From NCBI GenBank assembly GCA_002746935.1, contig PDRW01000007.1, positions 1 through 45,827 of the forward strand: DNA of 45,827 nucleotides, written 5' to 3'. Within the stretch, counting starts at the first letter, position 1. The number at the start of each line of letters is the position of its first letter. A model generated the notes under the pieces. It saw only the letters and a list, made by a program, of their open reading frames with translations. It made no database searches and was not told the origin of the DNA. Positions 29,393 to 45,732 of this stretch are shown here, in pieces. Source of the DNA: Rhodobacterales bacterium (GTDB taxonomy: Bacteria > Pseudomonadota > Alphaproteobacteria > Rhodobacterales > Rhodobacteraceae). A program made the position numbers and the translations under genes.

Positions 29393-29587
29393 TCACACCC
29401 CCAGCGCCGTGGCAAGCCAGACGAGCCCGACACCCAGCCCCACCGCCACCAGCCCGATGGCCCGGCGCTGTTCGCGGCTCAGGCTTGCCATCATCTCGAC
29501 CAGTTCATCGAGACGCGAAGGGGCCAGTGCGAACACCAGCCCCTCGATCACCAGCACCAGCCCAAGGCCGAGTGCGATCCAGCTCAT
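29393..29587 (-). CDS. DUF2065 (YjeT-like) small membrane protein
   Basis: The product is 64 residues. Two hydrophobic helices (3-22 and 43-62) flank a polar loop, SRLDELVEMMASLSREQRRAIG, which is the DUF2065 signature. Genes of this family regularly follow hflC, as here, and the start overlaps the hflC stop by four bases (ATGA). It is probably an accessory of the HflKC/FtsH membrane complex; the function is unproven. Confidence 0.9.
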   Translation of the reverse strand: MSWIALGLGLVLVIEGLVFALAPSRLDELVEMMASLSREQRRAIGLVAVGLGVGLVWLATALGV

Positions 29588-30678
29588 GGCAGGGTCTGCC
29601 CCGCGTTCGGCCCCGCGTTCGGCATCATGCCCTGCCCGGCGTTCGGAACCATACCCTGACCCAGGTTCGGCATCATGGCCTGCCCGGCCTCCGGCATCAT
29701 GGCCTGCCCGGCGTTCGGCATCATCCCTTGCCCGGCCTCCGGCATCACGACCTGCCCAGCGTTCGGCCCCGTGGCCTGCGCCGCGCTCGGCCCCGCGCTC
29801 GGCCCCGCGTTCGGCCCGCTGTCCGACTTCAGATAGTCGAAAAACTCGCTCTCCGGGGTGATGACCAGAGTGGAGTTTTCGCCCAGGAGGCTTTTTTCAT
29901 AGGCCGTAAGCGAGCGGTAGAAGGCAAAGAACTCCGGGTCGCGGCCGAAGGCCTCGGCGAAGATCGCATTGCGGCGGGCGTCGGCCTCGCCGCGGGTGAT
30001 CTCCGCCATCTTCTGGGCTTCCGACGTGGTTTCGACCACGGTCCGCTCGGCCTGGGCCCGCACCCGTTGTGCCGCTTCCTCACCGCGGGCGATCTCGTCG
30101 GCCGCCTCGCGTTCGCGCTCGGCGCTCATCCGCTCGAACGTGGCCTTGAGGTTCTGCACCGGCAGGTCGGCGCGCTTGATGCGCACGTCGACGATCTGCA
30201 CCCCCAGCGCCGCGGCCTGGGCGCGGGCCTGGTCGCGGATCTGGTTCATCAGCGCCACCCGGTCGGCCGACAGCACCGCCCCCGAGCTGACCCCGCCGAG
30301 CACCTTGTAGAGCTGCGCGTTGAGGATGCGTTCGAGCCGCTGGCGCGCGCCTTCGATGCCGGAGACCCCCACCGCGCGGCGGAAGGCCTTGGCATCAACG
30401 ATCCGCCAGCGGGCGAAGGCGTCGACCACCAGCCGGCGGTCGTCGGCGGGGGTCACTTCCAGCGGCTTGGTGTCGAGCGGCAGGATCCGGTCGTCGTATT
30501 TGGCGATTTCGTGCAGCACCGGCACCTTGAAATTGAGCCCGGGCTCCTTGATTTCCTGGGTGACTTCGCCAAACCACAGCCTGAGCGCGGTTTCGCGCTC
30601 GTCGACGATGTAGAAGCTGTTCAGCGCCACGACGAGGGCCACCACGGCGGCCGCGATGATGATCTGGGTCTTGCGCAT
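29584..30678 (-). CDS. hflC: HflC, SPFH-domain protease modulator with a Met-rich repeat tail
   Basis: The product is 364 residues. There is one N-terminal transmembrane helix (5-23), the SPFH/band-7 domain (about 24-200, FYIVDERETALRLWFGEV), and a coiled-coil (about 185-260). With HflK it forms a large membrane cage around FtsH, and these domains face the periplasm. The last 80 residues (285-364) are unusual: Gly-Pro-Asn-Ala units, then about six 8-residue repeats of the form MMP(N/E)AGQ(A/G). HflC proteins normally end near residue 290-300. The start shares one base with the hflK stop (TGATG). Confidence 0.95.
   Translation of the reverse strand: MRKTQIIIAAAVVALVVALNSFYIVDERETALRLWFGEVTQEIKEPGLNFKVPVLHEIAKYDDRILPLDTKPLEVTPADDRRLVVDAFARWRIVDAKAFRRAVGVSGIEGARQRLERILNAQLYKVLGGVSSGAVLSADRVALMNQIRDQARAQAAALGVQIVDVRIKRADLPVQNLKATFERMSAEREREAADEIARGEEAAQRVRAQAERTVVETTSEAQKMAEITRGEADARRNAIFAEAFGRDPEFFAFYRSLTAYEKSLLGENSTLVITPESEFFDYLKSDSGPNAGPSAGPSAAQATGPNAGQVVMPEAGQGMMPNAGQAMMPEAGQAMMPNLGQGMVPNAGQGMMPNAGPNAGQTLP
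29587..29826 (-). repeat. Repeat region encoding the HflC C-terminal tail
   Basis: Imperfect units of about 24 bp (reverse strand GGCCAGGC(C/G)ATGATGCCG and similar) encode the MMP(N/E)AGQ repeats; a shorter GGCCCGAGCGCGG-type unit encodes the GPSA/GPNA part. The reading frame is kept throughout. Confidence 0.75.
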
Positions 30679-34913: not shown

Positions 34914-35059
34914 GCACGCCCGGCCCCGTGGAGCAGCAGGCCGCACCGGGACCAAATGCGTCAATATGCCGCGCCCTGGAGGGGCGCATGAATTGCTGTC
35001 ATTTTGTCATGTCCGGGGGTCTGGTTTACATTGAAAATCAAGATATGTGTGGCGGGGTG

Positions 35060-35072
35060 TGCCAAATTGGCA
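35060..35072. promoter_or_regulatory. Palindrome TGCCAAATTGGCA before the molybdoenzyme cluster
   Basis: TGCCAA-A-TTGGCA is a perfect 6-bp inverted repeat, about 160 bp before the first gene. It is the best operator candidate for the cluster's regulator. A sigma54 box was looked for here; GG and GC dinucleotides nearby have the wrong spacing (10 or 13 bp rather than 12). Confidence 0.45.
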
Positions 35073-35233: not shown

Positions 35234-35596
35234 TTGAAAAAGGCAGCTTTTCTTTGCTGTTTCCTGGCAACGTCGGTCCTGACCTGCGGGGTCGCGGCTG
35301 CCCAGGAAGAAGAAGTCGCAGATGCCGTTGCGGATACCGAAGAAGTCGCGGATGCCGGTGCAGTGTCCCGGGAACCGGACCTGTTCATTGCCGGTGTCAA
35401 GCCTTGGCTGAGGCCGGACACGGCGCCGCGACCGGTGGAATATGTGAAAAACGATCAATGGTATGTGGACGCGCTGACCGGCGTTTCGCAGCCCTACCCC
35501 AGAAGCCTGTACTTTCTCGAGGATCAGGGGGGGTGGTTCAATCCATTTACCATGCCAGGAATGACAGGCCCCTACGACATCCGGGGGCGTCACTAG
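35234..35596 (+). CDS. Small secreted protein of unknown function, first gene of the molybdoenzyme cluster
   Basis: The product is 120 residues. The start is TTG at 35234, well supported by AAGGGAG seven bases upstream and the resulting signal peptide MKKAAFLCCFLATSVL...GVAAAQ. The mature part starts with an acidic stretch (EEEVADAVADTEEVADAG) and continues with aromatic- and Pro-rich sequence (KPWLRPDTAPRPVEYV, NDQWYVDALTG), ending FTMPGMTGPYDIRGRH. It has no Cys after the signal peptide and no heme motif. I do not recognise a family. The position suggests a periplasmic accessory subunit or a substrate-side partner of the molybdoenzyme. Confidence 0.75.
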   Translation: MKKAAFLCCFLATSVLTCGVAAAQEEEVADAVADTEEVADAGAVSREPDLFIAGVKPWLRPDTAPRPVEYVKNDQWYVDALTGVSQPYPRSLYFLEDQGGWFNPFTMPGMTGPYDIRGRH

Positions 35597-35601
35597 TATT
35601 C

Positions 35602-35627
35602 GGCCCGCGGCGATGCTGCCGCGGGCC
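35602..35627 (+). terminator. Intergenic hairpin before the Met-rich gene
   Basis: GGCCCGCGGC (35602-35611) and GCCGCGGGCC (35618-35627) form a 10-bp perfect stem with a 6-nt loop, five bases after the stop of the first gene. There is no T-run, so it is more likely an RNA-stability or processing structure than a full terminator. Confidence 0.6.
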
Positions 35628-35682
35628 GGATTCCCACGGGTCCGAACGAACGGGCCTAAATGTATCTAAGGAGGAACTCTCA

Positions 35683-35895
35683 ATGAACAAGGCGATCAGA
35701 CGCACACTTCTCTCGGCTCTGTGCTCTGTGTCGGTCCTTGCCATCCCCGCCAGCGTCAGCGCTGATTCCATGTCGGGTATGTCCGGCATGGGCGGCATGT
35801 CTGGAATGTCCGGCATGGGCGGCATGTCGGGTATGTCCGGCATGGACGGCATGTCGGGTATGTCCGGCATGGAAGGCAAAGAGAAGAGCCACTAA
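35683..35895 (+). CDS. Exported methionine-rich Met-x-Gly repeat protein
   Basis: The product is 70 residues: a 27-residue signal peptide (start MNKAIRRTLL, end SVSA) and a mature part of about 43 residues. The mature part consists of twelve Met-x-Gly triplets, x being mostly Ser. A higher-order 9-residue unit MSGMSGM(G/D/E)G occurs four times, mirrored by four 27-bp DNA repeats (35770-35877). A charged tail, EGKEKSH, follows. Methionine occupies every third position. The ribosome site, TAAGGAGG, is the best in the window, so high expression is likely. Similar composition occurs in copper/silver-binding proteins and in periplasmic oxidant-scavenging peptides; the function here is unknown. Confidence 0.85.
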   Translation: MNKAIRRTLLSALCSVSVLAIPASVSADSMSGMSGMGGMSGMSGMGGMSGMSGMDGMSGMSGMEGKEKSH

Positions 35896-35905
35896 GCCCT
35901 TTTCC

Positions 35906-35956
35906 GACCGGCACCGCCGGTCTTGAAAAATCCGGAGGGGCGTCCATCGCCCCTCC
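35906..35956 (+). terminator. Two consecutive intergenic hairpins after the Met-rich gene
   Basis: GACCGGC/GCCGGTC (35906-35922, 3-nt loop) is followed by GGAGGGGCG/CGCCCCTCC (35934-35956, 5-nt loop, 9-bp stem). Neither has a T-run. They could protect or process the small-gene message and set a step-down in expression before the cytochrome gene. Confidence 0.6.
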
Positions 35957-35988
35957 AACCGCTGAACCTTTTGGCAAGCGAGCCCCAG

Positions 35989-37563
35989 ATGAAACTGCTT
36001 GAATCCATCCTGCGCTGGATTGCGGTTCTGTTCTTCGCTATGACCGGTGTGCTGGCCCTCGTTTGGGTCGGCGTCATTGCCGTTTCTGCGATCAAACCCA
36101 ATCCCGAAGAACCCGCTGCAACAACTGCGGCGGCAACAACCGAAGCCCCTCTCGAAACCGCGGCCACCACGTCATCAGGTTCGCCTGAAGAGGCTTCTGA
36201 TAGTGTCGCCAGTGCCCCTGCACCAGCCATCGTGACGGTGAGCGCGGATGCGGGAGCAAAGGTTTTCAAGAAATGCAAGTCCTGCCACGACGCGGCAGAA
36301 GACGGCAAGGACAAGACCGGCCCCAATCTTTGGGACGTGATCGACCGGCCGGCGGCGGCGTCGGAGGGGTTCAAGTATTCCGATGCGATGCTTGCCCGCG
36401 CGGGCGAGCCCTGGACGGTCGACCAGTTGAAAGTCTTCCTCGCCGATCCCAAGGGCACCGTTCCCGGGACGGCGATGAGCTTCGGGGGCCTCAAGAAAGA
36501 GGCCGATATTCTCAATCTGATCGCCTTTCTCGGGCAGCAATCGGCGAACCCGCGCGACGTCGTCGCGTTGGGGCTGGCAAGCGCCGAAGCGGCCGCGGCC
36601 GCGGCCGCGGCTGAAGCGGCTCCGGCAGCCGAAGCCGCCGAGACCGAAGTGGCGGAAGCCGAAACCGGATCGGATGAGATCGAATATGACGATGTGCCCT
36701 GGCCGGAGGGCGTCACTTACGTGAACCCGCCCGAACCGACCGAGGCCGAACGCGAAGCCATTGCGGCCCGGGTCGCCGCGCTCAAGGAAGAGATCAAGGG
36801 CATCGACTACGAACGCGCCCGCTTCCACCCGCTGCACTTCCCGCCCGCGATCGAAAAGGCGAGCAACGAGGAATGCCTGGTCTGCCACCAGGAGGTTCTC
36901 AGCTACAAGCCGCGCGAAATGTCGCCGGCCGGTGTGCCGGTGGATGCGACGCTGGCATGGTACCAGACCCTCGACACCTATGAAGGCCCGCAATCGACCT
37001 TCCACTACCGTCACCTCGAAAGCGATTTCGCCAGGACGGTGATGAACCTCGAGTGCACCTTCTGCCACAAGGGCAACGATCCGCGCGAAGAAAGCCCGGA
37101 CATCATTCCGGACCGTATGCCGTTCACCGCGGCCGCGATCCCGGAATTCACCCTGCGCAAGATGGTGAACCCTTCGGAAACCTGCCTGCGCTGCCATGGC
37201 GCGATGCCGGATCCGGAAAACATCATGGGCCTCGCCGGTCCGTGGCATGAGATCCGCGAAGACATGGAATGGCCCGAAGCGCCCAACGGCTGCATGAGCT
37301 GCCATGCCGACAGCTTCCGTACCGCGCGCCACAATGTGAGCTATCTGAACGCGCTCAACATTGAGGAATACGCGCGCGCCGGATCTTCGGATGTGTGCTA
37401 CGGCTGCCACGGCGGGCGTGCCTGGTACCGGATTTCCTATCCGTATCCGCGTCACGTCTGGCCGACGATGGAAGACATGGTGGGCACGGAAGTGCCGGAA
37501 TGGGCGGCGGACCGCCCGACTGAATCGGAGCCGCAATATGCGCTTCCGACACTCGAGGAATGA
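35989..37563 (+). CDS. Membrane-anchored six-heme c-type cytochrome (class I cytochrome fused to a five-heme module)
   Basis: The product is 524 residues. One N-terminal transmembrane helix (about 9-35, start MKLLESILRW) and an Ala/Thr/Pro-rich spacer precede a class I cytochrome c domain (about 85-190; C96-K-S-C-H100, Met ligand M163 in TAMSFGG). An Ala/Glu-rich linker (198-230) follows. The C-terminal module (about 265-490) has five CxxCH sites: 296-300, 356-360, 399-403, 435-439 and 470-474. The first domain resembles the membrane-anchored cytochrome that links bc1 to oxidases in Paracoccus, and the second recalls multiheme partners of molybdoenzymes. Likely role: periplasmic electron carrier for the enzyme encoded next. 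The ATG at 35989 is chosen by the membrane helix; the ribosome site is weak. Confidence 0.88.
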   Translation: MKLLESILRWIAVLFFAMTGVLALVWVGVIAVSAIKPNPEEPAATTAAATTEAPLETAATTSSGSPEEASDSVASAPAPAIVTVSADAGAKVFKKCKSCHDAAEDGKDKTGPNLWDVIDRPAAASEGFKYSDAMLARAGEPWTVDQLKVFLADPKGTVPGTAMSFGGLKKEADILNLIAFLGQQSANPRDVVALGLASAEAAAAAAAAEAAPAAEAAETEVAEAETGSDEIEYDDVPWPEGVTYVNPPEPTEAEREAIAARVAALKEEIKGIDYERARFHPLHFPPAIEKASNEECLVCHQEVLSYKPREMSPAGVPVDATLAWYQTLDTYEGPQSTFHYRHLESDFARTVMNLECTFCHKGNDPREESPDIIPDRMPFTAAAIPEFTLRKMVNPSETCLRCHGAMPDPENIMGLAGPWHEIREDMEWPEAPNGCMSCHADSFRTARHNVSYLNALNIEEYARAGSSDVCYGCHGGRAWYRISYPYPRHVWPTMEDMVGTEVPEWAADRPTESEPQYALPTLEE

Positions 37564-37574
37564 GGACGGAAAAG

Positions 37575-40124
37575 ATGAAAGATGTGAAGGACACTTCCCC
37601 CGCCGTCTCCCGTCGCGCATTTCTGCAAAGCAGCGCGGCGGTGGCCGGAAGCACCCTGGTGCTGGGCGCCGGTGCCGACGAGGCCCAGGCCTTTGCCTAC
37701 GAGCCCTACCCGACGGATGACGAGCTCGAAACGGTCGTCACCTCCTGCGCTCACAACTGTGGCTCGCGCCACATGCTTGTGGCGCACAAGAAGGGCGACG
37801 TGATCGTGCGGATCAGCACCGATGACGGCACCTATCAGGGCGATGCCTACGGCACCGACACCGAAGCAAAACCCCAGGTGCGCGGCTGCCTGCGCGGCCG
37901 CTCCTACCGGTTGCGGCTCTACAGCCCCGAACGTCTGCTCTACCCGATGAAGCGGGTCGGCAAGCGCGGCGAGGCCAAGTTCAAGCGGGTCAGCTGGGAC
38001 GAGGCACTCGGGGACATCGCCCAGCGCATGGTCTATATCAAGAACAAGTACGGCCCCACCGCGCTTGTGGACCAGAGCTATGCCGGGGCGTCTTACGGCG
38101 TGTTGCACAAGTCGGACCAGATCGAGGGCCTTCTGGGGCGCTTCCTCGGCATGTTCGGCTGCCGGACCAACAGCTGGTCGGTCCCGTCCTATCAGGGCAC
38201 GACCTTCTCCAGCCGGATCACCTACGGCACCATCGAGGACGGCAACGAAGACGACGCCTACGCCCATACCAAGCTGATGATCATGTGGGGCTGGAACCCG
38301 GCCTACACATTCCATGGCGGCAATACCTTCTATTACCTGCGCATGGCCAAGCAGCGGGGCTGCAAGTTCGTGCTGGTGGATCCGCAATATACCGACTCGG
38401 CGGCGGCCTATGACGCCTGGTGGATCCCGATCAGGCCCAATACCGATGCGGCGATGATGGCCGGCATGGCCTACCACATCTGGGACAACAACTGGCACGA
38501 TCAGGCCTTCATCGACCGCTTCGTGCAGGGTATGGACCCGGGCACCATGCCGGGCTGGGCGCAAGGCCAGGAGAGCTTCAAGGAGTATATCTTCGGCGAG
38601 CGTGACGGCATTCCCAAGACCCCGGAATGGGCCTCGGAAATCTGCGGTGTCTCGGCTGACGACATCAGGAAGCTCGCGGAAATGTATGCAAACACCAAGC
38701 CTGCCGCGCTGAAGGCAAGCTGGGCGCCGGGGCGCAACGCCTATGGCGAGCAATACAACCGCATGGCGGCCGCGCTTCAGGCGATGACCGGCAATGTCGG
38801 CATCCTTGGCGGCTGCGCCGAGGGCGTGGGCAAGGGCTTCCACTCCGAAGGGGTCGCCTACCCCTATGACGAGTTCGCCAATGTCTGGTATGCGGCGATC
38901 AAGTCCGACCGCTGGGCCCATGCGGTGCTGAACTATCCGAACGTCAAACGTGAGGAAATCGGCTGCTGGCCCAAGGGTGACGGCCACCCGATGGACGGGG
39001 TGATCCCCAACATCCGCGGCATCTTCTGGCAGGGATCGGACTGGTTCAACCAGTTGACCAACATCAACAAGGAAATCGAAGCGATCCGCAAGCTGGAAGC
39101 CGAAGGCGAGATGGAAAGCCTGTTCGTCTGCATGGACAGCACCATCACGCCGACCGGCATCTGGGCGGACTACATCCTGCCCATCGCCACCCATTTCGAG
39201 CGGCACGATGTGGCGCTGCCCTGGTACAAGGGGCATTACTACATCCACCGTCCGGTGGTGATCCAGCCCATGGGCGAGAGCAAGACCGACTTTCAGGTCT
39301 TCACCGAACTGGCCTACCGGCTGGGCTTCGGCGAGCGCTACAACCCGAAGGCGAACCGCAACTACTTCTTCGATCCGACCGCGGTGGACGAGGCCTATCT
39401 GGTGGATTGGTGGCACAAGGTGCAGCACCATCAGGGCGCCGAAATCTCCTGGGAGGAATTCAAGAGGCGCGGGGTCTACAAGTTCATGCTGCCCGAGCCG
39501 CATGTGGCCTTCCGCAAGCAGATCGAGGAGGGGGCGCCCTTCAACACCGCGAGCGGCAAGATCGAGATCTTCTCCGGCCAGCTGGCGCAGATCACCGACT
39601 GGACCAAGACCCAGTACGGGTATCACATCCCGGCGATCCCGAAATGGATCGAACCCTGGGAGAGCCTGAACCATCCGCTGACCGAGAAGTTCCCCTTCCA
39701 CATGGTCAGCCCGCACCCGCGCTGGCGGACCCACTCGATCTTCAACAACATCCCGTGGCTGCGCGAAACCTTCAGCCAGGAAACCACCATGAACGCCTCC
39801 GATGCCCGCAAGCTGGGCATCAAGACCGGCGACATCGTGGAATGCTGGAACGACCGCGGCAGGGTGGTCACGCCGGTCTATGTGACCGAGCGCTGCATGC
39901 CGGGCGTGGTGGTGTTGCACGAAGGGGCCTGGATGGACCTCGACGAAGACGGCGTCGACCGCGCGGGCAACCCCGACTTCCTGACGAACGACAATCCGTC
40001 GCCCGCCGGGGCCTTCGCCTACAACACGGTGCTGTGCAACGTGAAGAAGTCGGACCTGAGCCACCGGCCCGGGTGGGATCAACTCGCGACCGCGCGGAGC
40101 CATGTGTTCCGCCGCGACATGTGA
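37575..40124 (+). CDS. Tat-exported DMSO-reductase-family molybdoenzyme, DmsA-like catalytic subunit
   Basis: The product is 849 residues. The Tat signal SRRAFLQ (12-18) ends near AQA-FA. The protein then follows the DmsA/YnfE pattern: N-terminal iron-sulfur motif at C58, C62, H66 and C105 (VRGCLRGRSYR), YPMKRVGKRGEAKF, VDPQYTDSAAAYDAWWIPIRPNTDAA, KTPEWASEICGV and a C-terminal pterin-binding domain (HPRWRTHS). The usual third Cys of the CxxxCxxxC motif is His66. The likely molybdenum ligand is a Ser near 205 (SVPSYQG), where DmsA has Ser. The substrate cannot be told. The ATG at 37575 has GAGGACGGA upstream; ATG 37560, overlapping the cytochrome stop, is the alternative. A DmsC-like anchor gene is absent. 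Confidence 0.92.
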   Translation: MKDVKDTSPAVSRRAFLQSSAAVAGSTLVLGAGADEAQAFAYEPYPTDDELETVVTSCAHNCGSRHMLVAHKKGDVIVRISTDDGTYQGDAYGTDTEAKPQVRGCLRGRSYRLRLYSPERLLYPMKRVGKRGEAKFKRVSWDEALGDIAQRMVYIKNKYGPTALVDQSYAGASYGVLHKSDQIEGLLGRFLGMFGCRTNSWSVPSYQGTTFSSRITYGTIEDGNEDDAYAHTKLMIMWGWNPAYTFHGGNTFYYLRMAKQRGCKFVLVDPQYTDSAAAYDAWWIPIRPNTDAAMMAGMAYHIWDNNWHDQAFIDRFVQGMDPGTMPGWAQGQESFKEYIFGERDGIPKTPEWASEICGVSADDIRKLAEMYANTKPAALKASWAPGRNAYGEQYNRMAAALQAMTGNVGILGGCAEGVGKGFHSEGVAYPYDEFANVWYAAIKSDRWAHAVLNYPNVKREEIGCWPKGDGHPMDGVIPNIRGIFWQGSDWFNQLTNINKEIEAIRKLEAEGEMESLFVCMDSTITPTGIWADYILPIATHFERHDVALPWYKGHYYIHRPVVIQPMGESKTDFQVFTELAYRLGFGERYNPKANRNYFFDPTAVDEAYLVDWWHKVQHHQGAEISWEEFKRRGVYKFMLPEPHVAFRKQIEEGAPFNTASGKIEIFSGQLAQITDWTKTQYGYHIPAIPKWIEPWESLNHPLTEKFPFHMVSPHPRWRTHSIFNNIPWLRETFSQETTMNASDARKLGIKTGDIVECWNDRGRVVTPVYVTERCMPGVVVLHEGAWMDLDEDGVDRAGNPDFLTNDNPSPAGAFAYNTVLCNVKKSDLSHRPGWDQLATARSHVFRRDM

Positions 40125-40145
40125 CGCGCGGAGAGGAGAACCGAT

Positions 40146-40820
40146 ATGGTCAACAAGATTGACAAGGCACGGATCCGCGAAAATGTCGCGCGGATGAAAC
40201 GCGAGCCCTACAAGCCGGTTGTGCCGGACATGCAGATGGGCTTCGTGCACAACAACGTGGATTGCATTGGCTGCCGGGCCTGCGAAATGGCCTGCAAGGA
40301 CAAGAACGGCCTCAATGCCGGGCCACGGTTCCGGCGGGTGCAGTACATCGAGGGCGGGACGTTCCCGGATGTCTTCGCCTTCAAGGTCAACATGTCGTGC
40401 AACCACTGCGCGGAACCGGCCTGTCTGCCCGCCTGCCCCACCGGCGCGATCTTCAAGCGCCAGGACAACGGCGTGGTCGACATCGACTCGACGCTCTGCA
40501 TCGGCTGCCGCAAATGCGAAGCGGCCTGCCCCTTCGGGGCGCCGCAGTTCGATGTCCACGAAAACGTGGTGAAGAAGTGCAACATGTGCATCGACGAGCT
40601 GGAGGCGGGGCGCAAACCCTATTGCGTTGCCGCCTGCATGATGCGGGTGCTCGACGTCGGGCCGATCACCGAGATCGCCGACGGCACTTACGACACCAAG
40701 GCCGTCGGCCCGAATGATCACGTGGTGCGCCAGGTGAAGTCCATGGCCGACCCGGAGCTGACCAACCCGTCGATCCGGTTCGTGCCGCATTCCAAGGCGG
40801 TGGTCGACAGTGGACAGTAG
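40146..40820 (+). CDS. DmsB-like four-cluster iron-sulfur electron-transfer subunit
   Basis: The product is 224 residues without an export signal, to be co-exported with the catalytic subunit. Sixteen Cys in four groups are present: CIGCRACEMAC, CNHCAEPACLPAC, CIGCRKCEAAC and CNMC...YCVAAC. This is the standard layout for four [4Fe-4S] clusters of the DmsB/NrfC/PhsB family. It passes electrons between the catalytic subunit and the cytochrome (inferred). The ribosome site GGAGAA precedes the ATG. Confidence 0.93.
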   Translation: MVNKIDKARIRENVARMKREPYKPVVPDMQMGFVHNNVDCIGCRACEMACKDKNGLNAGPRFRRVQYIEGGTFPDVFAFKVNMSCNHCAEPACLPACPTGAIFKRQDNGVVDIDSTLCIGCRKCEAACPFGAPQFDVHENVVKKCNMCIDELEAGRKPYCVAACMMRVLDVGPITEIADGTYDTKAVGPNDHVVRQVKSMADPELTNPSIRFVPHSKAVVDSGQ

Positions 40821-41559
40821 CACCCCGACCGCGGCCCAGGCTGCCGAACGGGTCGGGCCGCTCGCCGATGGGCTCGACGTTCTGATCCGCTTCCATGACC
40901 GTGAGGTCGATGCGGAACTCCTCGGCGAGCTGGCCCGCTACGACATCGCCGCCGGGCTGGTGGGGCTTTTTCAGGGCCCCGCCGGTCAGGCGGCGGCCTC
41001 GGATCTGAAAGCGGCGCTGGACAATCTGGGCATTTCACCGCCAGCCGAAGCGCTGGATGCCTTGGCCATCGACTACGCGGATCTGTTCCTCACCCATGCT
41101 TACCGGGTGTCGCCAAGCGCGTCGGTCTGGCTCACCGAAGACCGGCTCGAACGGCAAATGCCGATGTTCGACGTCCGCGACTGGTATGAGCATTACCATG
41201 TGTCGGTGCCCAACTGGCGGATCCGGGCCGACGACCATCTGGTGCATGAGCTGCAATTCGTCACCCACCTCTGCCGCCTTGGCGGCGAGGTGGCGCTGGC
41301 TGACGCGGGGCGCTTTCTGGACCTGCATGTGCTCCCCTGGGCGCCGGAATTCTGCCGCCGCGCGGCGGAACGGGTCCGGGAACCGCTTTACCGGGCGGTC
41401 ATGCAACTGACCCTCGCGGCTCTGGAAGACCTGCGCCAGACCCTCGAAGAGGCGACCGGCAAGCCACGCCAGGTGCGCGAGGCCTTGCCGCTGGACACCC
41501 AGCGCACACCGGACCCCGAAGACGTGGCCTATATGCCCGGGGTCGCCGAAAGCTGGTGA
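40810..41559 (+). CDS. TorD/DmsD-family chaperone for the molybdoenzyme
   Basis: The product is 249 residues, mostly helical. The TorD-family pattern Y-x2-LF...P-x-x-S...(D)DH-x3-EL-x-F is present as DYADLFLTHAYRVSPSASVWL and ADDHLVHELQFVTHLC. Such proteins bind the Tat signal of the apoenzyme and help cofactor insertion in the cytosol before export. The start is GTG at 40810, overlapping the previous gene by 11 bp. Confidence 0.88.
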   Translation: MDSSTPTAAQAAERVGPLADGLDVLIRFHDREVDAELLGELARYDIAAGLVGLFQGPAGQAAASDLKAALDNLGISPPAEALDALAIDYADLFLTHAYRVSPSASVWLTEDRLERQMPMFDVRDWYEHYHVSVPNWRIRADDHLVHELQFVTHLCRLGGEVALADAGRFLDLHVLPWAPEFCRRAAERVREPLYRAVMQLTLAALEDLRQTLEEATGKPRQVREALPLDTQRTPDPEDVAYMPGVAESW

Positions 41560-42449
41560 GCGCCATGGCCGCGCAAAAGGCCCGCCCGCTGTTTCGCGAT
41601 GGGATCATGATCCTGCCGCTGATGCCGGGCGGGGCCGGACCCGGGGGCGCCCAGCCCCCGGCCTCCCCTGCCCCCGCGGGCGCCCGGCCTGCGGCCTCCT
41701 CGCCATCTCCCGAAGCCCTGCATGCCATGCTCGACAGCTTCGCCGGGGCCTGGCTCGACGGCTGCCGCCGGGTGCTGATGCTCACCGGCGCGAGCGATCC
41801 CGCCTGGTGCGACGCAGCCCGGCGGTTCAACGCCCTGCTCGCCTCGCGCGGGCTCGAGCCCATGGCCCTGCGCAAGGCGTCGCAAAGCTCCAGAGCGGCG
41901 CGGACCGTGCATTCCCTGTTCGCGGAAGCCGGGTCGCTGCCGCGCCGCGAAAGCCTCCTTGGCGCGCTCGCCGCAGGCTCCCCGGATACCGGGCCCGACA
42001 CCGGTGGCGGCATTGGTGACGGCTTCGACACCCGCCCCGCCCTTGCCCGGATCCAGTCCGCCGAAGCCACAGCCGAAGGCGTGCTTTTCGCCATCGTGCC
42101 CCGGATCGACCCGGACCTTTGCTCCGGCTGTGACGCCTGCGTGCGGATCTGCCCGCCCGAAGCGCTGACCCTCATCGACACCCCCGGCGGCCTATCGGCC
42201 TATCATGTGGACCCGGAATCATGCGATGCTTGTGGCCTGTGTGAGAGCGTTTGCGAAGAGTCAGCGATCCGGTTGGAAACAATGGCCCTGGCACCCAAAG
42301 ATATTCCCCTGCAAAGCTGGGCCTGCCGGGCCTGCGGCGTGGCGGTGCACGGGCCGCAGGCGGCGGCCGAGGGCCGCGCACAAGACGGGCTTTGCCGCAT
42401 CTGCGCCCGGACCGGGCATCACAAGAAGCTGTTTCAGGTTCTGTCGTGA
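41556..42449 (+). CDS. Ferredoxin-type (2[4Fe-4S]) protein with a C-terminal Cys4 motif
   Basis: The product is 297 residues. The N-terminal half is Pro/Ala-rich, with a Trp/Cys helix (LMLTGASDPAWCDAARRF). The second half holds two ferredoxin motifs, CSGCDACVRICPPEAL and CDACGLCESVCEESAI, then a CRAC...CRIC pair that may bind zinc or iron-sulfur. It has no signal peptide, so it is cytosolic. It resembles NapF-like proteins thought to help reductase maturation; that role is inferred. The start is GTG 41556 (overlapping the stop as GTGA) or ATG 41565. Confidence 0.8.
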   Translation: MSAMAAQKARPLFRDGIMILPLMPGGAGPGGAQPPASPAPAGARPAASSPSPEALHAMLDSFAGAWLDGCRRVLMLTGASDPAWCDAARRFNALLASRGLEPMALRKASQSSRAARTVHSLFAEAGSLPRRESLLGALAAGSPDTGPDTGGGIGDGFDTRPALARIQSAEATAEGVLFAIVPRIDPDLCSGCDACVRICPPEALTLIDTPGGLSAYHVDPESCDACGLCESVCEESAIRLETMALAPKDIPLQSWACRACGVAVHGPQAAAEGRAQDGLCRICARTGHHKKLFQVLS

Positions 42450-44347
42450 GCCATGGTCTCGCAGAGACCGGCCTTGTCAGATGGGCCCGCCATCGTTTGC
42501 AGCGCCAGCTTGGCCTGGTCGCGGCGGGGCTGATCCTGATCGCCTCGGCGGCCTTTCTGGTGCTGGTGACGGCGCAATACAAGTCGAGCATCCTGCGGGC
42601 CAACGAGCGCGCGTCGCTCAACGTGAACCTGCTGCTGCAGGCGGCGCTGGAAAACGCGATGATCAACCGCGACCTCGAGGGTCTGCAAGGCATTGTCGCC
42701 CGGCTCGGCCAGCAGGAAAACGTTACCAGCGTGTTCATCGCCAACCCTGAGGGCGAAATCCGGTTTTCGTCGGACCCTGCCCTGCTCCACCACCCGCTTT
42801 CCGATGCCGGTTTCGATCAGGCGCTGCAAAGCGGCGAGACCTACACCGGTTTCCGGGCGCTGGCCTCGGGCCAGGAGGTGCTGCGCAGCATCAATCCGGT
42901 GCACAACCAGCCGCGTTGCACAGGGTGCCACGGGGCGATCGCCGACCACCCGATCAACGGGCTGTTACTGGTTGATTACGATGCCTCCGGGGTGCGTGCC
43001 ACCGTCCGGCGCGGGGCCTGGCTGCTGGCGGGGCTCGGGCTCGTGGTGCTGATACTGCTGGAAGCAGGGCTGTGGATCGCCGTGCGCCGGGTGGTGCTCA
43101 GCCGGCTGACCGAGCTGTCTGCCACAGCGCGCACCTTCGCAGCCGGCAATCTGGCGGCGCGCACCGGCGCGCGCGCCGCGGGCAAGGCGGCGGAGGGCGG
43201 CGACGAGCTCACCCGCCTTGGCGCCAGTTTCGACGACATGGCCGACCAGATCGAGACCAGCGTGAGCGAGATGCGCGCGGCGCATTCGGCCTTGCAGGTG
43301 CTGATCGACGCCATCCCCGACGGCGTGCGTGTGATCGGCCCGGATTACCGGATCGTGATGGCCAACAAGGCCTATTGCCACCAGATCGGGGCCAGCCCCG
43401 AAGAGGTGATCGGAGAGCCCTGTTACGCCTCGAGTCACAAACGCAAGACCCGCTGCGTGCCGACCCTGGTCTGCTGTCCGCTGGCGGAAATTCTGGGAAC
43501 GGGCAAACACGATCTGACCTGTTCGCATGTGCATGTGGACCGGACCGGCTCCGAAATTCCGGTCGAAGTGTCGGCGGCGGAGGTTTCGCTGCGGATCGAC
43601 GGGGTTGAAACCGCCTGCGTGGTCGAGTCGATCCGCGACATGGAGGCAGACCTGTCGTTCTCGCAAAAGCAGCGGCTCGCCGAGATGGGCAGCCTTGCCG
43701 CCGGGATCGCCCATGAGGTGAACAACCCGCTGGCCTCGATCAAACTGGCGCTGAAGGCGATCGGCTCGGGCATGGACCTGCCCGAAAACGTTCGCCAGAA
43801 CCTCCAGATCGCCGAGACCGAGATTGCCAATTGCCAGACCATCACCGAGAGCCTGCTCAGGCTTTCGGCCTTGCCGCAGGTGGAGCGCGAACTGGTCGAC
43901 CTCAGCGAGGCGATCCGCGACACCGCGACGCTGCTGTCTTTCGAGGCGACCCGGCTGGGGGTGGAGATCGTGCAGGACGTCACCGGACGGCCGCGCACGC
44001 TGGCGCGCGACAGCAATATCCGCAACCTGCTTTTCAACCTTGCGCTCAATGCGGTCCATGCCATGCCCGAAGGCGGAACCCTGCGCATGGCCTGCCGCAC
44101 CACGGGCGACACCGTGCTGATCGAGGTGGAGGATAACGGGGTCGGCATTTCGGACCGCGACATGGCGCGGATCTTCATGCCGTTCTGGACCCGCCGCGCC
44201 GACGGCAGCCGCGGGCGAGGCCTCGGCTTGGCGATCTGCTCGTCCATCGTTAAGAATCTGGGCGGGAGCATCAGGTTCAGATCGGAGGTCGGTGTGGGCA
44301 CCTGTGTTTCGGTCGAACTGCCAAATGCAGGAGATGGCGCGCCGTGA
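42446..44347 (+). CDS. Membrane sensor histidine kinase with a periplasmic c-type heme motif
   Basis: The product is 633 residues. Transmembrane helices at about 22-44 and 190-213 enclose a periplasmic domain whose end carries C158-T-G-C-H162, a heme-c attachment motif. Next are HAMP (about 213-280), a PAS domain (about 285-395) with an unusual set of Cys (311, 326, 337, 343, 344, 359), HisKA with His423 in AAGIAHEVNNP, and HATPase_c (N-box NLLFNLALNAVHAM, G1 DNGVGIS, G2 GRGLGLAIC). It probably senses redox state or a heme ligand and phosphorylates the next gene's product. The GTG start overlaps the previous stop (GTGA). Confidence 0.92.
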   Translation: MSHGLAETGLVRWARHRLQRQLGLVAAGLILIASAAFLVLVTAQYKSSILRANERASLNVNLLLQAALENAMINRDLEGLQGIVARLGQQENVTSVFIANPEGEIRFSSDPALLHHPLSDAGFDQALQSGETYTGFRALASGQEVLRSINPVHNQPRCTGCHGAIADHPINGLLLVDYDASGVRATVRRGAWLLAGLGLVVLILLEAGLWIAVRRVVLSRLTELSATARTFAAGNLAARTGARAAGKAAEGGDELTRLGASFDDMADQIETSVSEMRAAHSALQVLIDAIPDGVRVIGPDYRIVMANKAYCHQIGASPEEVIGEPCYASSHKRKTRCVPTLVCCPLAEILGTGKHDLTCSHVHVDRTGSEIPVEVSAAEVSLRIDGVETACVVESIRDMEADLSFSQKQRLAEMGSLAAGIAHEVNNPLASIKLALKAIGSGMDLPENVRQNLQIAETEIANCQTITESLLRLSALPQVERELVDLSEAIRDTATLLSFEATRLGVEIVQDVTGRPRTLARDSNIRNLLFNLALNAVHAMPEGGTLRMACRTTGDTVLIEVEDNGVGISDRDMARIFMPFWTRRADGSRGRGLGLAICSSIVKNLGGSIRFRSEVGVGTCVSVELPNAGDGAP

Positions 44348-45732
44348 ACAGAACCAGTCCCCCCCGCAGCATCCTCGTGGTCGAAGACGACCGCAGCCTC
44401 AACACGCTGCTGCTGAGCGAGCTTGAACGCAAGGGCTACGAGATGACCGGCGCCATGTCCTGCGCCGAGGCAAGAGCCGTGCTCGAAACCATGACGCCGG
44501 ATCTGATCCTGATCGACATCCGCCTGCCCGATTGCAACGGTCTGGAATTGCTGGTCGAATTCGCGCCGCGCACCCCGGTCATCACCATGACCGCCTATGG
44601 CGCGGTGGATCAGGCGGTGAAGGCGGTGCGCACCGGCGCCAGCGACTATCTGGTCAAGCCGGTGAGCTATGAGGCGCTGGAACTGGCGATCGAACGGGCT
44701 CTGGAAACGGCGGAACTCAAACGCGATCTGGCCTATTGGCAACAGCAGGCGCAGCAGGCGGCCTTCGGCGCGCTGATCGGCGACAGCCCGCCCATGGCCG
44801 AGATGCGCCGGATGATCGAGCTTTATTCCGCCGCCGGATCCGAAGTGCTGATCGAGGGCGAAAGCGGCGCGGGCAAGGAACTCGTGGCGCGCGCCATTCA
44901 TGAAGCCAGCGACCGGGCGGGAAAGCGTTTCGTGCCGGTCGATTGCGATCTGGCCGATGAATCCAGCCTCATTGCAGACCTGTTCGGCTATGAACGCGGC
45001 ACCTTTCCCGGCGCGGATACGCGGCACGAGGGCATTCTGGAGATCGCCGGCCGTGGCACGATCTATCTCAGCGACATCGCGGTAATGTCGCAATCCATGC
45101 AAAGCCGCCTGCTCAGGGTGCTCGAATCCGGCCGCTTCCGCCGCGTTGGCGGGGCCGAGGATGTGACCACCAGTGCCCGCATTCTGCTCGGCACCAGCGA
45201 GGATCTGCACGAGAGGGTCGAGGCCGGGCATTTCCGCTCGGAACTGTTCTTCCGCATCAGCGCCTACCGCATCCAGGTGCCGGCGCTGCGCGACCGCGGC
45301 GACGACATCATCGCGCTGGCCAGGTATTTCCTGAGCAACCGCAATTTTGACCGCGGCACCGGGAAGGAACTGGCGCCCGAAGCGCTCGACATGCTCCTTG
45401 CCTACGACTGGCCCGGCAACGTGCGCGAATTGCGCAATGCGATCGAGCGCGGGGTGATCGTGGCCGGCGGCGCCAAGGTGATCGGCCCGGATCATTTTGC
45501 CTTCGGCACCGCCTTGCGCGACCGCCACGGCGGCAACGCCGAAGGCGGGGTGACGCTGACCTTCGACAACGAGCCGACGCTGGACGACCTGCGCGCCGCC
45601 TATATGCGCCTGCTGCTGGAGCGGCACAACGGCAACCGCCGGGTGGTGGCCGGAATTCTCGGCATCAGCGAGCGCAACACCTACCGGCTGCTCTCGAAAC
45701 TGAACCTCACCCGGAACCCGGGCGGGGTTTAA
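44344..45732 (+). CDS. NtrC-family response regulator with degenerate sigma54-activation motifs
   Basis: The product is 462 residues. The receiver domain (10-120) has Asp58 as phosphorylation site. The AAA+ domain (about 143-370) keeps Walker A GESGAGKE (172-179), Arg fingers (298, 304) and WPGNVREL. The sigma54-contact loop GAFTGA reads GTFPGA (219-224), and the Walker B DE is SD (243-244). A Fis-type helix-turn-helix (about 425-455, [20 protein letters not shown]) ends the protein. It may therefore not activate sigma54 promoters in the usual way. The GTG start overlaps the kinase stop (GTGA). It most likely controls this cluster. Confidence 0.92.

Follow-up and report, generated by a model that had tools for sequence, protein, structure and literature searches.

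What might a molybdoenzyme of the dimethyl sulfoxide (DMSO) reductase type do when it is encoded together with a methionine-rich protein predicted to be exported, a multihaem cytochrome and a haem-type two-component system? This question is raised by nine genes at positions 35234 to 45732 of the window, by which we mean the whole stretch of 45,827 nucleotides analysed here (contig PDRW01000007.1 of assembly GCA_002746935.1, contig 6 of the 2.8 Mb draft genome of a Rhodobacterales bacterium), with the operon lying at the end of the contig. We propose tentatively, and as a reading to which we give rather less than an even chance, that the operon may encode a periplasmic methionine-sulfoxide (MetO) cycle, in which a cytochrome-linked sulfoxide reductase would recharge an oxidised methionine polymer. 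At the level of sequence, the proposal draws on the gene set and its conservation, on candidate regulatory sites, and on the clade and cofactor ligands of the enzyme.

Results

Organisation of the operon

A first-pass annotation, made from the DNA alone, had read nine co-directional genes with five overlapping joints. Positions and strand were checked, and this layout was borne out, as were the gene identities when domains were called with Pfam and NCBIfam. The cytochrome stop and the dmsA start share 37560-37563; the other overlaps are dmsB/torD at 40810-40820, torD/ferredoxin at 41556-41559, ferredoxin/kinase at about 42443-42449 (approximate because the kinase start codon is uncertain) and kinase/regulator at 44344-44347. 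The features are as follows.

34997..35009, no strand: imperfect further copy of the operator, TGTCATTTTGTCA, with one mismatch, lying 63 bp ahead of the exact one (pattern match)
35060..35072, no strand: candidate operator palindrome TGCCA-AAT-TGGCA, sole exact match to TGMCAN3TGKCA within the window (0.14 expected)
35234..35596, + strand: small secreted signature protein, TTG start, operon head (homologues in 43 of 47 loci)
35683..35895, + strand: short (Met-x-Gly)n secreted protein, 70 aa, signal peptide and 12 Met-x-Gly units
35989..37563, + strand: membrane-anchored six-haem cytochrome with a transmembrane helix, a class I c_y/c552-like domain (residues ~87-183), an Ala-rich linker and a pentahaem domain
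37560..40124, + strand: catalytic subunit (DmsA-like) with a leader of the twin-arginine translocation (Tat) type (SRRAFL), FS0 ligands C63-x3-C67-x3-H71-C110, Mo ligand Ser210, and Tyr174
40146..40820, + strand: DmsB-like iron-sulfur subunit (TIGR02951, 189.3 bits, under the cut-off of 214.1)
40810..41559, + strand: TorD/DmsD-type chaperone (PF02613, E 1.9e-20)
41556..42449, + strand: 2[4Fe-4S] protein (Pfam/NCBIfam), no signal peptide seen by eye
42443..44347, + strand: sensor histidine kinase with a Cache-type domain carrying CTGCH, then HAMP, PAS and HisKA (start uncertain)
44344..45732, + strand: NtrC-type response regulator, sigma-54 contact loop GTFPGA where GAFTGA is usual

A NapF-like role in maturation for the 2[4Fe-4S] protein would be a guess. 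Among the nine genes, to which the Pfam and NCBIfam search was confined, no DmsC-type anchor or quinol-oxidising subunit was recognised; the remaining genome lay outside this search.

The catalytic subunit lies in a separate clade

The best NCBIfam match of the catalytic subunit is TIGR02166 (DmsA/YnfE), at 618.1 bits against a cut-off of 777.7. Five members of its clade score 602.5-637.1 with this model, the non-clade sequence L119 scores 610.0, and four more score 403.6-417.6; 18 other places reach 896.5-1395.2. In a tree of 59 rows, the 31 clade rows fall together (Shimodaira-Hasegawa-like approximate likelihood ratio test, SH-aLRT, 100) on a stem of 1.92 changes per site with tips shorter than 0.3. 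The clade sits beside DmsA/YnfE/YnfF and is separate from TorA/BisC as well as from the 16 DmsA/Ynf rows, which comprise E. coli DmsA, YnfE and YnfF with their relatives. L119, more distantly related and with all four FS0 cysteines, places near the clade without support. This tree was built by a quick method and may be subject to long-branch effects, including that of L119 with the clade; it represents 30 of 88 loci plus the window, and leaves out two molybdenum enzymes of the window's own genome (L001, L002) as well as the type II, iodate, chlorate and other characterised clades of the DMSO-reductase family. It had been expected that the enzyme would fall outside characterised clades, and this holds for the DmsA, YnfE/YnfF, TorA and BisC groups tested in the tree.

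The cofactor ligands were compared as well. The predicted Mo ligand Ser210, which aligns with the Ser of DmsA, TorA and BisC, is invariant in all 86 distinct clade sequences. Each of the 86 also carries Cys-Cys-His-Cys at FS0, where the third position is Cys in DmsA, YnfE and YnfF, and an invariant Tyr174, which is aligned with the BisC Tyr and absent from DmsA. The Tyr equivalent to Tyr174 is important in DorA. A Ser Mo ligand combined with a BisC-type Tyr would fit a sulfoxide reductase. An ordinary DmsABC enzyme was considered and rejected, as the TIGR02166 cut-off, the clade and the FS0 tests all failed. The AlphaFold model of the subunit, for which there were nine close sequences only, has a predicted local distance difference test score (pLDDT) of 36.5.

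The window's Met-x-Gly protein is a short member of its family

The peptide at 35683, described earlier as a Met-x-Gly peptide, is indeed present and conserved; its 70 residues, however, make it an unusually short member of a (Met-x-Gly)n family with leader peptides. The protein has 208-318 aa in five isolates and 244 aa on the finished plasmid of Rhodobacter xanthinilyticus (below). Across 71 genes, the open reading frames (ORFs) have a median of 188 aa and 43 Met, with a maximum of 104 Met, many of them truncated by contig ends or with uncertain starts. These genes contain 3143 Met-x-Gly units in runs of at least four, in which x is most often Ser (1707) or Gly (1025), then Ala (117), Asn (105), Asp (69) or others. 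Ser is encoded by TCN and AGY alike and Gly by all four codons, so that it is at the protein level that selection acts on the repeat. Of 74 Met-rich genes, 31 encode WxC[TV]x[WY] modules and 18 a module of the GY[FY] type. The contig ends at most 3.6 kb upstream of dmsA in 43 of 80 loci, and 25 of these 43 contigs start inside Met-rich sequence. Because draft contigs often break there, the repeat may be collapsed in the window's metagenome-assembled genome (MAG) and the real protein longer.

Are such arrays peculiar to bacteria that carry the enzyme? A DNA pattern for (Met-x-Gly)5-Met matched in 15 of 299 genomes drawn from the phylum (the list of enzyme carriers, the array counts and the 35234 profile below are taken as referring to the same draw, as their handles match). 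The five enzyme carriers gave 7, 76, 46, 20 and 11 matches and the ten other genomes 1-3, the range over all 294 non-carriers being 0-3; four further carriers gave 46-79 each. That Met-x-Gly arrays are a general trait of these bacteria was therefore rejected, at least seven matches being confined to five carriers among the 299 genomes. A chance low-complexity ORF was likewise rejected, since the frame is found again in different families, with a leader and with differing codons.

Some Met-rich sequences stand outside this pattern. At L018:12593-14567 (- strand), two long genes with Met-Tyr-Gly-Met-Pro-Gly type repeats replace the usual single gene just upstream of the 35234 homologue. In carrier G006, the 76 matches divide into 56 at the operon and 20 in a second gene, and at L158:4164-6317 (contig 18 of G006) a methanol/ethanol-type dehydrogenase dependent on pyrroloquinoline quinone (PQQ) (TIGR03075, 755.8 bits) bears a Met-Ser/Gly/Asp-Gly repeat near its C-terminus. 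This gene adjoins a methanol-metabolism cytochrome and a glutathione-dependent formaldehyde dehydrogenase, and a search near it gave no operator motif. In the window itself, the HflC-like protein encoded at 29584-30678 (- strand) has a C-terminal tail of MMPNAGQ-type repeats, and its gene adjoins an HflK-like one.

The 35234 gene defines a signature family

The 26 aligned homologues of the 35234 protein are alike over a core of some 70 residues, 16 of them invariant (AG..P..RP..AP...W...AL.GV..PYP.SL.FL.DQG.W.TPF..PGMTGPYDIR.WH). A profile of the family matched in 4 of the 299 genomes, all four being enzyme carriers. The fifth carrier, G771, is uninformative because its operon is the last feature on a contig of only 8.7 kb, which breaks off within the Met repeat. 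No convincing relative was found in Pfam (best E 0.025) or by a profile search of the PDB (two matches, both E 0.38). The AlphaFold model has a pLDDT of 67.9. One might guess at a docking or scaffold protein.

The gene set is rare, patchy and conserved

Eight close homologues of the catalytic subunit (74-86% identity to the window's) were found, and they are rare: at E 1e-100 they occur in 5 of 292 genomes from the order, and at E 1e-150 in 3 of 385 from the class and 5 of 398 from the phylum, each sample including the window's own genome. When about 85,000 species genomes were scanned, 418 stretches proved to encode a relative (E 1e-3 or better), and the best 80 of the 418 were analysed (74-91% identity over the best segment). 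Their hosts include Rhodobacterales, Hyphomicrobiales, Geminicoccaceae, Rhodocyclaceae, Thiotrichales, Thiodiazotropha, Sedimenticola and tubeworm and lucinid symbionts, among others, so labelled, some MAG labels being doubtful. The titles of L036, L070 and L097 (Exiguobacterium, Dichelobacter and Desulfobulbus) are at odds with their nearest sequence relatives, and these may be mislabelled or mis-binned MAGs, or cases of transfer.

The gene set recurs across alpha-, beta- and gammaproteobacterial genomes. The complete set, in unchanged order, is present on the 264-kb plasmid pEJ01 (typed conjugative) of R. xanthinilyticus LPB0142, a cultured sea-water isolate, and it therefore appears that the unit can move. 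In the annotation of pEJ01 the first two genes are 'hypothetical protein' and the enzyme is 'molybdopterin-dependent oxidoreductase'.

Co-occurrence of the homologues of 35683, 35989 and 37575 had been named as a check in the first-pass annotation, and it was found. After removal of the duplicate loci L014, L016 and L019 (= L056, L030 and L060), a dmsB homologue lies near dmsA in 88 of 88 fetched loci and the cytochrome in 87 of 88. Upstream genes were counted in the 47 distinct loci with at least 1.5 kb of DNA 5' of the cytochrome: a Met-rich ORF (at least 8 Met per 40 residues, same strand, within 2.5 kb) is present in 44 of them, the exceptions being L018, L066 and L089, and a 35234 homologue in 43 (missing from L039, L068, L070 and L089). 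In most alphaproteobacterial loci the genes for the kinase and regulator come next on the same strand; in nine loci, from sulfur symbionts and Thiotrichales, they are found upstream in divergent orientation.

Several loci depart from this layout. Inserted genes separate dmsA from dmsB in L070 and L081; those in L070 (5350-7560) are four near-identical tandem small-protein genes, and L081 has a different insertion. A Lamellibrachia symbiont carries a second cytochrome-DmsA-DmsB set at L084:15790-20560, with an A subunit 68% identical to the window's and a gene for a two-haem c4-like cytochrome. At L065:5371-6180, and similarly in ten loci, a family without a Pfam match lies upstream of the operon and has repeated DGS-type motifs resembling the GYFKITPQGQIFFYP modules of the Met-rich proteins. 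Five recurrent neighbour proteins were sent to Pfam, and three matched: a cytochrome c, an NHL/thioredoxin protein and the ATPase of an ATP-binding cassette (ABC) transporter.

Cytochrome partners

The window's cytochrome joins a class I cytochrome c domain to five further CXXCH motifs, so that the six haem motifs read at first are present, and haem would be attached at these motifs. Six haems in one protein are not the general form, however: the c_y-like/pentahaem fusion occurs in 3 of 16 aligned sequences (the window, L022 and L023), the other 13 having mainly the pentahaem part, in which the five CXXCH are invariant. L013, from the same family as the bearers of the fusion, is without the class I domain. 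A separate cytochrome gene family is found in 11 loci (the tested copy is PF00034); in the four loci inspected, its gene stands between torD and the ferredoxin gene. A profile search of the PDB with the pentahaem part gave no match at 0.01.

Candidate regulatory sites precede the 35234 gene

Of 44 loci, 30 have the palindrome TGMCA-N3-TGKCA ahead of the 35234 homologue. They contain 48 sites in all, where a background of 18 sites in 797 kb would predict 0.6. Two or more copies are found in 17 of the 30 loci, and in 12 of the 30 a pair lies 63-69 bp apart. The motif was discovered and counted on the same loci; the R. xanthinilyticus plasmid (L159), with two exact copies 63 bp apart, is the one independent check. 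We infer that the palindrome may be an operator bound by the regulator of the operon. As it lies 5' of the 35234 gene, the regulated unit appears to start with this gene and to include the Met-rich protein.

A sigma-54 site scoring at least 10 of 12 precedes the 35234 homologue in 19 of 45 loci (0.56 in shuffles which, like those used for the operator, preserve base composition only). Such sites occur in 15 of 22 loci whose regulator has G[AS]FTGA, versus 0 of 14 whose regulator does not, this threshold and grouping having been chosen after inspection of the data. With the original split (GAFTGA, score at least 9), 17 loci have a site and 2 do not, versus 6 with and 11 without for the non-GAFTGA loci. 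Among the 57 loci whose regulator is full-length, 56 have a kinase with CXXCH, a motif that suggests haem binding, and the remaining one, L015, gave no kinase match. Because of the 5' palindrome, and of sigma-54 sites that track the GAFTGA motif of the regulator, the Met protein, the enzyme and the haem-type sensor look like one regulon.

Discussion

How could these parts work together? In the cycle that we propose, the (Met-x-Gly)n protein would be exported, as its leader predicts, and its thioethers would take up oxidants, presumably hypohalous acids or peroxides, to give MetO. The DmsA-like/DmsB-like enzyme would leave by the Tat pathway with the aid of the TorD-like chaperone, and at its Ser-ligated Mo centre MetO, the predicted substrate, would be returned to Met. 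Electrons would run from the cytochrome c pool to the enzyme by way of a class I cytochrome and then the pentahaem protein, the two being fused in the window and some relatives and encoded separately in some gammaproteobacteria. The haem-c sensor kinase and the NtrC-type regulator would activate the set through the operator upstream of the 35234 gene.

A recharged methionine sink is the simplest reading, because DorA reduces protein-bound MetO, known Ser-ligated relatives are oxide reductases, and Met-rich peptides linked to MsrP are regarded as sinks. The conserved linkage of enzyme, Met-rich protein, 35234 gene and haem-type two-component system also fits the idea of sacrificial methionine. 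R. sphaeroides DorA reduces both free and protein-bound MetO and is about three times better or faster on QWGAGM(O)QAEED than on TTPGYM(O)EEWNK (PMC7402097). In Brucella and in perchlorate reducers, the Met-rich peptides whose genes accompany those of MsrP-type Mo enzymes are described as a sink for hypochlorite and other oxidants or as part of a methionine-cycling system (PMC8315932, PMC4623255). The interpretation given by the first-pass annotation, an enzyme acting on oxidised methionine or a sulfoxide with the peptide as sacrificial substrate, is supported in part: the clade is distinct, the linkage is conserved and apparently co-regulated, and the ligands suit a sulfoxide reductase, while its oxidative alternative stays alive, as weighed below.

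Several observations weigh against the cycle. The DNA upstream of the window's operon has no convincing sigma-54 site, and the window's own regulator, with GTFPGA, belongs to the non-G[AS]FTGA group. No Met-rich ORF was seen in L066 and L089 (2 of 47 loci), nor, within the fetched DNA, a Met-rich gene or a 35234 homologue beside the second Lamellibrachia symbiont set, so that this type of enzyme may function without them. Conversely, the Met-x-Gly tail on a PQQ dehydrogenase in one carrier means that the repeat is not exclusive to the DMSO-reductase-type enzyme. The NHL/thioredoxin-like protein (14 loci) is the sole recurrent neighbour that is possibly oxidant-related, few neighbour families being annotated. 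Class I cytochromes are usually of high potential, and DMSO/dimethyl sulfide (DMS) lies near +0.16 V; reduction from such a pool may therefore be uphill, and an enzyme working in the oxidative direction, or with a stronger acceptor, would be the more probable.

The enzyme may instead serve respiration by reducing a small S- or N-oxide or an oxyanion (DMSO, selenate, chlorate or iodate), with the Met-rich protein merely guarding against reactive by-products, as MrpX does in perchlorate reducers. This we regard as unlikely. The Ser Mo ligand would suit it, and DMSO and selenate reductases are the closest families by TIGR02166, yet the enzyme stays under that family's cut-off in a separate clade, its operon has no quinol-oxidising subunit among the nine genes, and the Met-rich gene, present in nearly all loci and within the regulated unit, does not behave as an optional addition. 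On perchlorate islands, mrpX and yedYZ are named key genes of oxidative-stress defence (PMC4623255), and a 'dmsAB' of lucinid symbionts, near soxY-S1c and dsrAB, is read as a DMSO reductase, with Hyphomicrobium denitrificans dmsAB named as a parallel (PMC11237559); either pair may or may not belong to the window's clade.

Electrons could also flow the other way, from a thioether or other reduced sulfur compound through the pentahaem protein and cytochrome c to an oxidase, the Met-rich protein then being substrate, binder or sink. We keep this oxidative alternative, which seems improbable, because class I cytochromes are fused or neighbouring. By analogy, the invariant FS0 His would suit a raised potential, and the names of several hosts mark them as sulfur oxidisers (Thiodiazotropha, Sedimenticola, tubeworm and lucinid symbionts), which describes a host list and is not a measured enrichment. 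Ser-ligated enzymes of the DmsA, DorA and BisC types, however, are known as reductases, and the known DMS dehydrogenase is a type II enzyme with an Asp ligand. A role of the (Met-x-Gly)n protein in buffering Cu(I)/Ag(I), with its association with the enzyme serving metal protection, is very unlikely. Regular Met spacing recalls the Met motifs of copper proteins, and the Trp-x-Cys modules (31 of 74 genes) point the same way, but His is nearly absent from the repeats (1 of 3143 x positions) and no copper protein was among the three Pfam-matched of the five recurrent neighbours tested.

How far does the proposed MetO cycle resemble known systems? MsrP has the sulfite-oxidase fold and receives electrons from the haem-b protein MsrQ, whereas the window enzyme (PF00384/PF01568) is of the DMSO-reductase type. 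The window system also adds a pentahaem c cytochrome, a (Met-x-Gly)n protein with up to 104 Met per ORF and the 35234 signature protein. MsrPQ (YedYZ) with MrpX, or BcrXQP, shares the co-encoding of a Mo enzyme and a Met-rich peptide for an oxidant sink and methionine cycling, and is under sigma/anti-sigma control (PMC4623255, PMC8315932); the window operon has a haem-type two-component system. As with MrpX, a Met-rich protein, exported by its leader's prediction, belongs in 44 of 47 loci to the operon of a Mo enzyme whose own leader predicts a periplasmic location.

With DmsABC and YnfEFGH the operon shares a catalytic and a DmsB-like subunit, a Tat-type leader, a Ser Mo ligand and an FS0 cluster; DmsABC also has a TorD/DmsD-type chaperone. 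The window enzyme is nevertheless only about 35% identical to dmsA of E. coli plasmid records, has the FS0 His, Tyr174 and a clade of its own, and its operon lacks DmsC and has extra cytochrome and Met-rich genes. TorA and BisC are not known to have a B subunit; they lack the FS0 cysteines and lie on a distant branch of the tree. Dor/Tor/BisC/MtsZ enzymes share the Ser ligand and the BisC-type Tyr, and DorA reduces MetO, both free and in proteins (PMC7402097). The window's cytochrome matches the decahaem DmsE family TIGR03508 weakly (21.7 bits versus a cut-off of 192.2), and no outer-membrane DmsF-like family was recognised among the nine genes by Pfam or NCBIfam. In Shewanella DmsEFABGH, too, DmsAB is served by a multihaem cytochrome.

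No description of the gene set was found in the openly licensed PMC literature, most subscription papers and preprints being outside this search. That a Mo enzyme can be paired with a Met-rich sink is an established idea. What is new to us is the type of enzyme, the Met-x-Gly polymer, the 35234 signature protein, the route of the electrons and the regulatory switch. A bolder speculation, to which we give little credence, is a redox polymer: the enzyme would reversibly interconvert tens to a hundred Met and their sulfoxides, wired by the pentahaem protein and cytochrome c to the respiratory chain, and would store or buffer oxidising equivalents at oxic-anoxic boundaries, with the haem-type kinase reading the charge state of a dedicated protein 'electron capacitor' able to spread by plasmid.

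A direct test system for the MetO cycle exists in R. xanthinilyticus, with a complete operon, a cultured host, a finished plasmid and a candidate operator. If the cycle is real, the pairing of a Mo enzyme with a sacrificial methionine protein would have arisen at least two times, with enzymes of unrelated fold, the version described here having a long Met array of regular spacing and a dedicated haem-type switch. It would also give a function to plasmid genes now annotated as 'hypothetical protein' and 'molybdopterin-dependent oxidoreductase', which have relatives in lucinid and tubeworm symbionts and in other bacteria.

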